The notes below the pieces were generated by a model. It saw nothing but the letters and a program-made list of their open reading frames with translations, was not told the origin of the DNA and made no database searches. A DNA stretch of 22,228 bases, taken from positions 1-22,228 of the forward strand of contig JARDZO010000125.1 of assembly GCA_029240815.1 (NCBI GenBank), in the 5' to 3' direction. Each line of letters starts with the position of its first letter. Within the stretch, counting starts at the first letter, position 1. Source of the stretch: Brevibacillus sp. (GTDB lineage: Bacteria > Bacillota > Bacilli > Brevibacillales > Brevibacillaceae). Positions 3,263 through 5,477 of this stretch are shown piece by piece. A program made the translations under genes and the position numbers.

Positions 3263-4606
3263 TTGGATTTCCTACTTCGCTTTGTTCTCGTGGACATACC
3301 CGAAGCCTTCTTACTACTTACTATTGGTTTGGCCATGTTCAACCACTCGGTTTTCGAAAAAAAGAAACAAGCGTTCTTTTTCAGTATTCTCTTTTCGATG
3401 GCCGGTGAAATACTCTCGTTTTTGGATGTTCCCTATCAACCTAAAGTTTTGCTAATGTTCTTATTAACTGCCTTGATCATTTTATTTCTCTATCGCTATA
3501 ACATTTTAAAGTCTGTCTTCATAGGCATGACTTCCATTTGTTCCATGATCATATCTGAATCCGTTGTGATCATGATCTTCAACAGTCAGCAGATTTATTT
3601 TGAACAAATGCTCTCCACGACCATGCAGACGATTACGATTCGTGCTCTTTATTTAGGGATTTTTGTACTGATTGCCATTATCTTGCGGCTCACCAAATTC
3701 GACATTCAACGTTTGCTGCCACAGAATCGGTATAACCGTTATCTGTTTTTACTCGTTTTAGTGGGTAGTGTTGAGTTTCTCTTGATCTTATTTTTGAATA
3801 CATCTTTTTTCTTGCGTGAAAACAACACCGAGTTCATTTTAGTATATTCGCCTAAGTTCCAATTACTGTTTCAGCTATTAATTCTTGCCCTTTTTATTGT
3901 AATTGTAATCTTGTTCCGCATTTATCTCAATTTGACGATCAATCGCGTGGAAGAGGAGACCGGTACTCCCTATTTAAATAGCATCCATGATTTAGTGACC
4001 GCGATCCGTTCCATCAAACACGATTCTTTAAATCATTACACCGCGATCAATGGCTTTCTGAAAAAAGGATATGTTGACTTGGCAAAAGAGTATGTGGAGC
4101 AGCTGTTGCAAGAAACCGTCACGGTAGAAAAGTCTGTCGACTCAAGCTCACAAGTACTGGAGAGCATCAAAAACCCGGCAGTCTCCTCTCTTCTCCAGTC
4201 AAAAATGGAAGTATGTCTGGCGGAACGAATCGCACTTTCCATGAATATCAAGACCGTCAGTCAATTCTCCCAAATCAAAACGTACGATCTGATCAAGGTT
4301 CTAGGTAATCTATTCGATAATGCCATTCGAGCTACATCTTATGAACTGGAAGAAAACAGATTTATTCGCTTGGAATGGGGGCAATCCGAGGGCGAGCATT
4401 ACCTGATGATTGAAAACAGTGGGCCAACCATTCCAAAGGACAAGCTGCCCGGAATTTTCCAACCAGGTTACACCACCAAAAAAGGGGGAGAAGGCGGCTT
4501 GGGCTTGGTCATCGTTAAAACGGTTACCGATCGTTATGGTGGCAGAATCCATGTACGATCAGAAGAGGGTGTAACCAGTTTTCGGATTTCCTTTCTTAGT
4601 CGGTAA
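3263..4606 (+). CDS. AgrC-like GHKL-type membrane sensor histidine kinase
   Basis: This 447-residue protein should sit in the membrane and autophosphorylate on histidine in response to a signal, most likely the peptide encoded downstream. About six or seven hydrophobic segments span residues 5-25, 37-55, 62-78, 84-106, 124-142, 159-179 and 199-221. The H-box reads RSIKHDSLNHYTAINGFL with the likely phosphoacceptor at His253, as in AgrC/Spo0B-like dimerisation domains. The GHKL ATPase domain shows the N-box VLGNLFDNAIRA (346-357) and a G-box GGEGGLGLVIVK (408-419). Translation probably starts at the TTG at 3263, seven bases after a ggggagg site; no better start is visible. It leads a three-gene unit with agrB-like and agrD-like genes. 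No response regulator gene is nearby. The transmembrane half looks AT-richer than the flanking housekeeping genes. Confidence 0.88.
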   Translation: MDFLLRFVLVDIPEAFLLLTIGLAMFNHSVFEKKKQAFFFSILFSMAGEILSFLDVPYQPKVLLMFLLTALIILFLYRYNILKSVFIGMTSICSMIISESVVIMIFNSQQIYFEQMLSTTMQTITIRALYLGIFVLIAIILRLTKFDIQRLLPQNRYNRYLFLLVLVGSVEFLLILFLNTSFFLRENNTEFILVYSPKFQLLFQLLILALFIVIVILFRIYLNLTINRVEEETGTPYLNSIHDLVTAIRSIKHDSLNHYTAINGFLKKGYVDLAKEYVEQLLQETVTVEKSVDSSSQVLESIKNPAVSSLLQSKMEVCLAERIALSMNIKTVSQFSQIKTYDLIKVLGNLFDNAIRATSYELEENRFIRLEWGQSEGEHYLMIENSGPTIPKDKLPGIFQPGYTTKKGGEGGLGLVIVKTVTDRYGGRIHVRSEEGVTSFRISFLSR

Positions 4607-4639: not shown

Positions 4640-5239
4640 ATGACTTGGACGGAAAAAGTATCGATGCGGCTGGCGAAACGGTTAAAGACAGAAGATACGA
4701 CCTACTCCGTGGGACAGCTCGCACACGGCATTGAAATCTTTATGCTCAACATCATAAGCGGCTTGGCACTCATCATTGTTTCAGTAATTTTTCAGTTATT
4801 CAAAGAGGTAATGCTTCTGTGTTGCCTCTTTTTCTTGCACCGTCTAGTAACCGGCGGGGTACATTTACGAAATCCATGGACTTGCCTTCTCGCTACTCTC
4901 TCCCTGATGATGGCAGGGGGTTATCTAGTAAAACACTTGCCTGTGCTTCCAGCTCCGTACGCTCAATTGTTAGTGTTTGTTGGCGTAGGATTCGCGTACG
5001 TGATCAACTATCGGCACGCACCTGCTGCACATACCTACTCTCCTACATACCCTGCCATCCAGCGCAGAAATAGATTCATCGTCCTATGTATGCTAGCAGC
5101 AGGTTGCACAATTTCTATTATTTTGGTAGGATATACCTATCAACTCTCCATGACTTATACATTAGCAGTTCTCTTGCAATCCGTTCTTCTCATGCCAAGT
5201 TCATTCCGACTAGTTTCACGATTGGAAAAAACATTTTGA
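4640..5239 (+). CDS. agrB: AgrB-like membrane endopeptidase for a cyclic peptide autoinducer
   Basis: AgrB proteins cut the C-terminal tail from the AgrD pro-peptide and help form the cyclic (thio)lactone. The 199-residue product has the expected catalytic pair, His75 and Cys82 in GGVHLRNPWTC, with the His-to-Cys distance of seven residues known from staphylococcal AgrB (His77/Cys84). Hydrophobic segments follow at about 37-65, 83-100, 105-125, 145-165 and 170-185. The N-terminus (about 1-30) is amphipathic and basic. An upstream TTG at 4625 overlaps the ribosome site gggagg, so the ATG at 4640, seven bases after that site, is the better start. The gene lies 33 bp after the kinase and 14 bp before the pro-peptide, so the order here is kinase, protease, peptide rather than the staphylococcal order. 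Confidence 0.88.
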   Translation: MTWTEKVSMRLAKRLKTEDTTYSVGQLAHGIEIFMLNIISGLALIIVSVIFQLFKEVMLLCCLFFLHRLVTGGVHLRNPWTCLLATLSLMMAGGYLVKHLPVLPAPYAQLLVFVGVGFAYVINYRHAPAAHTYSPTYPAIQRRNRFIVLCMLAAGCTISIILVGYTYQLSMTYTLAVLLQSVLLMPSSFRLVSRLEKTF

Positions 5240-5253
5240 GAGGGTGATTGTCA

Positions 5254-5400
5254 GTGAAGAAATTTCAGATTATTCTTAGTGGATTCTTTGCTCTCCTGTC
5301 TACATTAAACATCTCCGGTATTTTAAAGGGAGGACTTCTTTATGAGCCAGTTCCGCCCCATCTCCGTGAAGAAAACAATCATGTAAACGTCAATGAATAG
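5254..5400 (+). CDS. AgrD-like autoinducer pro-peptide (48 aa) without cysteine
   Basis: This short gene has a GTG start at 5254 with a gagaggg ribosome site about 8 bp upstream, and a TAG at 5398-5400. The product has a basic start (MKKF), a hydrophobic or amphipathic stretch to about residue 24, a short Gly/Leu-rich core ending at Tyr30, and an acidic, proline-rich tail starting EPVPPHLREE. That layout matches AgrD: N-terminal membrane helix, signal core, charged recognition tail with a P-x-x-L-like motif. Position directly after agrB and before a strong terminator supports the call. The odd point is that no cysteine exists anywhere. The nearest possible nucleophile is Ser21, which would give a lactone ring of about nine or ten residues if cleavage occurs near Leu29-Tyr30. 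The mature peptide is therefore uncertain. Confidence 0.75.
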   Translation: MKKFQIILSGFFALLSTLNISGILKGGLLYEPVPPHLREENNHVNVNE

Positions 5401-5424: not shown

Positions 5425-5464
5425 AAAAACCCGCGACCTCTATCCAACGAGAGCCGCGGGTTTT
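5425..5464. terminator. Bidirectional intrinsic terminator between the agr-like operon and the yvlD-like gene
   Basis: A strong stem with acccgcg on the left and cgcgggt on the right is extended by a run of A on the left and T on the right. It can end transcription from the peptide gene on the plus strand, 24 bp after its stop. It can also end the YvlD-like gene on the minus strand, 13 bp after its stop. Confidence 0.9.
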
Positions 5465-5477
5465 CTTTGTTCGTTTT

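Follow-up and report, generated by a model that had tools for sequence, protein, structure and literature searches.

What marks the known agr-type signals is a ring closed by a labile thioester or ester, and it is the Cys or Ser of that ring that annotation seeks. A 22,228-nt stretch of a Brevibacillus sp. contig (JARDZO010000125.1), called the window here, raises the question of what closes the ring, if anything does, when the AgrD-like peptide beside an intact AgrB contains no Cys at all. Between hprK and uvrA/uvrB (the latter two recognized by eye), the window carries on its + strand, in order, a GHKL/SpoOB-type sensor kinase, agrB and a 48-residue ORF. The features needed for the argument are as follows:

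3263..4606, + strand: sensor histidine kinase with GHKL/SpoOB-type domains, probable AgrC-like receptor (Pfam; start codon uncertain).
4640..5239, + strand: agrB, membrane cysteine endopeptidase/cyclase of 199 residues with His75 and Cys82 intact (PF04647).
5240..5246, + strand: ribosome-binding site GAGGGTG, separated from the agrD GTG start by 7 nt (read from the sequence).
5254..5400, + strand: agrD-like gene for a pro-peptide of 48 residues without Cys, GTG start and TAG stop (sequence and homologues).
5254..5325, + strand: N-terminal leader, residues 1–24 (family alignment).
5326..5328, + strand: AAG codon of Lys25, putative ring-closing position (Cys in sister lineages).
5326..5340, + strand: predicted core KGGLL, residues 25–29, candidate five-residue lactam (register from the Cys and Ser types).
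5341..5397, + strand: C-terminal tail YEPVPPHLREENNHVNVNE, expected AgrB recognition tail (family alignment).
5430..5468, no strand: inverted repeat CCCGCG...CGCGGG with a T-rich stretch behind it, perhaps a terminator separating convergent genes (by eye).

The short ORF is a real gene under purifying selection. It is not a chance reading frame, because homologous short ORFs lie directly 3′ of agrB in 11 of 11 Brevibacillus loci from one bacterial-genome scan, and because agrD dN/dS is 0.10–0.28 in seven of ten pairs, those with finite dS (dS was saturated in the other three). The gene starts 14 nt past the agrB stop. A preliminary description of this DNA had placed a Cys-free frame with the tail EPVPPHLREE at 5254–5400, directly after agrB, and had taken it for an AgrD-type pro-peptide; the coordinates and features were confirmed, and the assignment is supported. 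Across the family, tail residues E31, P32, P34, P35, and R38 are invariant. The family profile matched 21 of 398 sampled genomes of the class at E values of 1e-15 or better, all of them in the Brevibacillus order, and six further genomes more weakly (E 8e-4 to 6e-3). Each of these 27 matching genomes, a set outside of which the window's own genome lies, gave a single match and no second AgrD of the family. Compared with a profile of 14 hand-picked ordinary AgrDs, the window's family matched at a probability of 86.6%, with an E value of 4.5e-6 for that single comparison. Two records in the set are irregular: the agrD frame of one relative (G005) is interrupted in a homopolymer run (L027:2115-2244), possibly an assembly error, with an intact homologue in P0047, and a member of the family labelled Clostridium perfringens (P0060) is Brevibacillus-like, so that the record is possibly mislabelled or contaminated.

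The window's AgrB matches PF04647 over profile positions 4–183 of 185 (E 6.2e-24; 84.8 bits against a cut-off of 23), and His75 and Cys82 are invariant in 21 aligned homologous AgrBs, the window's included; together these bear out the intact catalytic pair noted earlier. The protein is 88% identical to an AgrB named B. choshinensis. No PDB chain matched the AgrB profile at E up to 1. In three other loci (L040, L065, L066) no AgrB was picked up by the His/Cys motif, yet His and Cys are in place on reading. A fused AgrB in a relative (G033, a 701-residue frame) was rejected because the frame runs into an N stretch. The window holds both an AgrB-family endopeptidase with catalytic His/Cys and a short AgrD with leader, core, and Pro-rich acidic tail.

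Identifying the ring residue depends on the cut site, written below as a slash within a peptide, with core positions counted back from it. We expect AgrB to cut the window's AgrD between Leu29 and Tyr30, because the usual five-residue ring of its relatives would end just before the [Y/H][E/Q]P motif. The register is anchored by the Cys types CTGFL/HEPKPPHLRGE (B. fluminis), CINSI/YEPKPPHLRGE, and CTGHL/HEP, by the Ser type SMFMM/YQPEPP of one genome of the order, and by ordinary AgrDs of the form [C/S]xxxO/YQP; further Cys-type cores in the order are CTLSI, CTTHL, and CTGIL. If the Cys- and Ser-type relatives form the usual five-residue ring, the earlier placement of the cut at Tyr30/Glu31 is one residue too late.

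Where an AgrD usually has Cys or Ser, the window has Lys25, which precedes the conserved YEP tail by five residues. Among 48 distinct family members (56 distinct full strings, with those identical from −20 to +8 merged), position 25 is Lys in 32, Cys in 15, and Met in one, and the Met member has Ser one place later. The two types differ at the same place, as in GIMCTGFL/HEPKPP (B. fluminis, Cys) vs. GILKGGLL/YEPVPP (window, Lys), and the clearest Cys/Lys pair, GILCINSIYEPKPPHLRGE vs. GILKMGVWHEPKPPHLRGE, aligns without a gap. Of the 39 genomes of the order, 18 have Lys as the first core residue ahead of [Y/H]EP, and six, with the same leader and tail, have Cys there. Lys25 is the sole invariant core residue of the Lys types (32/32), with Gly at −3 in 29 of 32 and variable Gly or hydrophobic residues at −4, −2, and −1; both AAA and AAG codons are used among relatives. 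The profile–profile alignment likewise laid Lys25 on the ring Ser of the 14 ordinary AgrDs. Judged by these alignments, Lys25, which had no part in the earlier reading, occupies the predicted ring-closing position of the Cys and Ser types. Ser16 was considered as a nucleophile and rejected: it is equally invariant in the Lys and Cys types, and so belongs to the leader and is not a special nucleophile. Separate from this family, paralogous Brevibacillus AgrDs (L070, L075, L076, L081, L082, L085) have Ser at the ring place (SAGLS, SAALI, SPWLT, SFGFV, SAWFV) and are candidate Ser-lactone signals.

How unusual Lys is at this position was gauged from AgrB neighbourhoods across the phylum and class, 139 loci (L115–L253) from which those of the Brevibacillus order were deliberately excluded. 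Eighty of the 139 were hand-picked from the matches listed, roughly by score and with gaps. Dropping 22 loci with an absent or weak AgrD (three of which, L145, L242, and L253, had once shown a Cys or Ser candidate) left 117, with 115 distinct AgrDs. Beside these AgrBs the residue at −5 was Cys in 64, Ser in 40, and Thr in one; the other ten consisted of one peptide with Ser at −6 (L202) and nine with Lys at −4, all from a single Paenibacillus-like family. Apart from the 22 dropped loci, to which the statement does not extend, every sampled AgrD lacking Cys, Ser, or Thr at −5 thus has a shifted Ser or a Lys. The peptide with Thr at the ring-closing position (L186, TGFWS/YQPEVPDKL) lies beside an AgrB and may form a Thr lactone.

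The nine Lys(−4) peptides represent a second Cys-less AgrD family, of the form [M/L/I/A/F]-K-x-x-hydrophobic before the cut and [H/Y/N/G][S/N/A]P after it (e.g., MKPAF/HSPEAPQEL), which occurs in many Paenibacillus-like genomes (L254–L283) and in Brevibacillus paralogues (L039/L071, L065–L067, L086). A profile built from the nine survey peptides and five from the Brevibacillus paralogues matched 62 of 245 genomes of the Paenibacillus-like family. All of the best 30 matches have Lys at −4, a profile that already held Lys being behind this count and the nine survey peptides having been picked without it; lower-scoring matches are sister peptides in which −5 is Cys or Ser. We read 69 loci, eight of them without a core by the pattern, and left out one listed match. 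Among the 35 distinct peptides with the tail [HYNG][SNA]PxxPxEL, −4 is Lys in 34, and the remaining one (L313) is of the Ser(−5) type. Ser or Thr stands at −7 in 22 of the 34. In three AgrDs (L284, L285, L288) the short core is the same but −4 is Ser (ASPML/YRP twice and ASPFI/YRP, vs. MKPML/HSP); with a core one residue short, they suggest a smaller ring or a shifted cut. Less firmly than in the window's family, Lys thus appears to take the place of a nucleophile, here Ser, beside a distant clade of AgrBs too.

A tree of 42 chosen AgrBs (17 Lys(−5), six Cys, 14 Lys(−4), and five Ser types) places the two Lys families on opposite sides of a branch with 100/100 support. The proteins were picked by a motif that includes the catalytic His and Cys, so these residues are present by construction and are not used as evidence. 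One Lys/Cys change is needed within the window's family and three changes for all four types together. Two origins of Lys at the ring-closing place are plausible on this tree. In the drawing the Lys types enclose the Cys types, but with so long an outgroup branch the direction of change is not readable from the root. On the tree, the window's AgrB is nearest to that of G011 (76% identical). No AgrB residue clearly follows the Lys type among 17 Lys-type and six Cys-type AgrBs; at the thresholds used, only Leu/Phe at position 83 tracks it.

Any signal made here would need a receptor, for which the kinase gene beside agrB is a candidate. The N-terminal half of its product is hydrophobic by eye, and Pfam matches are to HATPase_c (2e-18), HATPase_c_5 (GHKL; 1.1e-12), and SPOB_a (8.5e-8). 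The top NCBIfam match is DcuS/MalK (85.8 bits against a cut-off of 520) and the second is staphylococcal AgrC (67.6 bits against 500); both scores are so far below the cut-offs that neither name applies. Going by reading frames, seven of eight relatives' loci have a long + frame ending just upstream of agrB, and in the eighth the kinase is interrupted. Gene order around agrBD is alike in the eight loci compared, two of which are of the Cys type (L010, L011). No AgrA-type LytTR response regulator was found among the window's ORFs from hprK to uvrA; LytTR proteins are encoded elsewhere in the genome in all ten related genomes searched. Individual loci depart from the common arrangement: in B. 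centrosporus the kinase gene upstream of agrBD is split by an IS110-type transposase (L001:2083-4482) with the agrB and agrD frames intact, and in the Cys-type genome G029 (L063), whose AgrB sits on a long tree branch, agrD lies upstream rather than downstream of agrB. Downstream of the window's agrD, a terminator scan found only a shorter stem at 5449–5465, and its one site against 2.0 in shuffled sequences is no excess over chance.

The reading we prefer, and hold to be about evenly poised between right and wrong, is that the Lys25 side chain resolves the AgrB acyl-enzyme to give a lactam autoinducer. In S. aureus, mutagenesis indicates that AgrB forms a Cys thioester acyl-enzyme, which the AgrD Cys attacks to close a 16-membered thiolactone (PMC4979651), and the leader is removed by a different protease (PMC10196373, PMC10885120). 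By the same logic, Cys82 of the window's AgrB would cut between Leu29 and Tyr30 and hold residues 1–29 as a thioester; the acyl group would then pass to the side-chain amine of Lys25, forming a five-residue lactam of KGGLL with a 19-atom ring. The leader would be taken off by another peptidase, and the neighbouring kinase would sense the product. From the family comparisons and these precedents we infer the position of the cut, the lactam, the export and sensing of the product, the pairing with the receptor, and the regulon. Computed ring sizes separate the two families: a Lys lactam closed from −4 has 16 atoms, the same as a Cys thiolactone closed from −5, and a Lys lactam closed from −5, as in the window, has 19. 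Without an exotail, the calculated [M+H]+ of the window's KGGLL is 469.313 as a lactam and 487.324 as a linear peptide; for KGGLV, the predicted core of G011, the values are 455.298 and 473.308. For the broader proposal, that Brevibacillus and, separately, Paenibacillus-like AgrBs make Lys side-chain lactam autoinducers, our confidence falls a little short of even.

Several points count against a lactam. At neutral pH most Lys side chains carry a proton, so attack by the amine would need local help. The window's ring would have 19 atoms and not 16, Ser or Thr at −7 is frequent in the second family (the 22 of 34 noted above), and the kinase scores higher with DcuS/MalK than with AgrC, below the cut-off in both cases. 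Strict conservation is itself no proof of covalency, since Arg38 of the tail is as invariant as Lys25 in the window's family. Synthetic analogues give a mixed picture: a lactam analogue of the Listeria AIP was an agonist down to 80 nM (PMC11297923), and in S. aureus lactam analogues lost agonist activity (PMC10482373) or about 1000-fold in potency (PMC11297923). Given the poor or absent activity of the S. aureus analogues, a natural Lys ring would need an adapted receptor. Among the titles and abstract openings listed by searches of the open-licence AgrD/AgrB literature, none describes a natural AIP closed as a side-chain lactam, or Lys as a ring residue.

The strongest rival to the lactam is a linear peptide, which we regard as unlikely though a serious contender: AgrB would cut at Leu29/Tyr30, water would resolve the acyl-enzyme, and the kinase would recognize the Lys-containing linear product. 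This would require no new chemistry and would suit a peptide without Cys, in a family where 15 of 32 distinct Lys-type relatives have no Ser, Thr, or Cys at −12 to −1. It leaves unexplained, however, why in two AgrB clades far apart the ring-closing place is taken by Lys, and in none of the sequences seen by Arg, and why Lys stays while most other core positions vary. Linear AIPs, moreover, are reported to be inactive in S. aureus (PMC10482373, PMC12312760).

We see a small chance that the product is a homodetic head-to-tail cyclopeptide, formed if the leader were cut just before Lys25 and the freed α-amine closed the ring. Autoinducing cyclopeptides were reportedly the subject of a 2021 paper on clostridia, which by its title counts in favour, and the Listeria AIP without its exotail rearranges to a homodetic cyclopeptide (PMC11297923). 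The known route, however, is a Cys S-to-N shift and the window's AgrD has no Cys, and an invariant Lys would be left without a reason. That the locus is decayed or repurposed and yields no signal has a slight chance of being right: the transposase inside the B. centrosporus kinase gene and the one genome with an interrupted agrD frame point that way, but the low dN/dS in seven of ten pairs, the catalytic pair invariant in 21 AgrBs, and the similar gene order in eight loci argue against it. The large-ring lactone on Ser21 that the preliminary description had suggested, modelled on the nine-residue Ser lactone of GBAP (PMC12312760), is very improbable, since Ser21, although the nearest Ser, Thr, or Cys N-terminal of the cut in the window, varies among homologues, the outcome that the description had itself named as refuting (Ala in 16, Ser in 12, Ile in two, Met in one, and Lys in one of 32 distinct Lys-type relatives, with Cys types varying there too), so that a Ser conserved some nine residues ahead of the cut, as a GBAP-like ring would require, is not found. 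That reading gives way to a Lys-for-Cys AgrD family, whose product we take to be most likely a lactam, with about half of our confidence, and otherwise, distinctly less probably, a linear peptide.

Available annotation gives little hint of such families. The model TIGR04223 (quorum_AgrD, cyclic lactone autoinducer peptide; cut-off 19 bits) scored 17.0 bits for two of three Cys-type relatives tested and did not match the third; it matched none of four Lys(−5) members tested, the window's included (searched at E up to 10), and gave 12.7 bits for the one Lys(−4) member tested. Where the protein search displayed a name for a Lys-type member, that name was hypothetical protein, and the failure of Lys-type peptides to reach the TIGR04223 cut-off (five of five tested) would explain why they are unnamed. 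In a 2023 Brevibacillus genome paper, most isolates are reported to have agrB and clusters for cyclic-lactone autoinducers; the passages concerned name no ring residue (PMC9867215).

If Lys can act as the closing residue, a single natural enzyme, AgrB, would produce stable macrolactams, and agr would have a natural ring chemistry besides the thiolactone, the lactone, and the homodetic amide formed by rearrangement. Two AgrB clades far apart would have Lys as the ring-closing residue, one of them keeping the canonical 16-atom ring by having one core residue fewer, and agr families would have gone unnamed. The nucleophile range of AgrB could then be tested with natural enzyme–substrate pairs from one genus and its neighbours, and amide-stable natural agr signals would be at hand for comparison with the existing synthetic lactam analogues.

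Compared with known systems, the window resembles staphylococcal AgrB/AgrD in its gene pair, AgrB family, catalytic His/Cys, leader–core–tail layout, and five-residue core before the tail. It differs from the staphylococcal thiolactone AIPs, whose five-residue ring is closed by Cys, in having Lys at the ring-closing position and no Cys, and from staphylococcal agr in its order kinase–agrB–agrD without an adjoining response regulator. The Ser lactones of S. intermedius/pseudintermedius (AIP) and E. faecalis (GBAP) offer a precedent for swapping the ring Cys for another nucleophilic side chain; in the window, by contrast, that group would be an amine and not a hydroxyl, Ser is not conserved, and no nine-residue ring is indicated. 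As in the homodetic Listeria AIP and the clostridial cyclopeptides, the proposed end product from the AgrD peptide would be closed by an amide, although the Listeria amide arises by rearrangement of a Cys thiolactone, and the window's AgrD lacks Cys. In class C (pilus) sortases, a Cys thioester acyl-enzyme is resolved by the side-chain amine of a Lys, joining cell-wall proteins to one another. This is the same chemistry as that proposed here for AgrB, carried out by an unrelated fold and between molecules.
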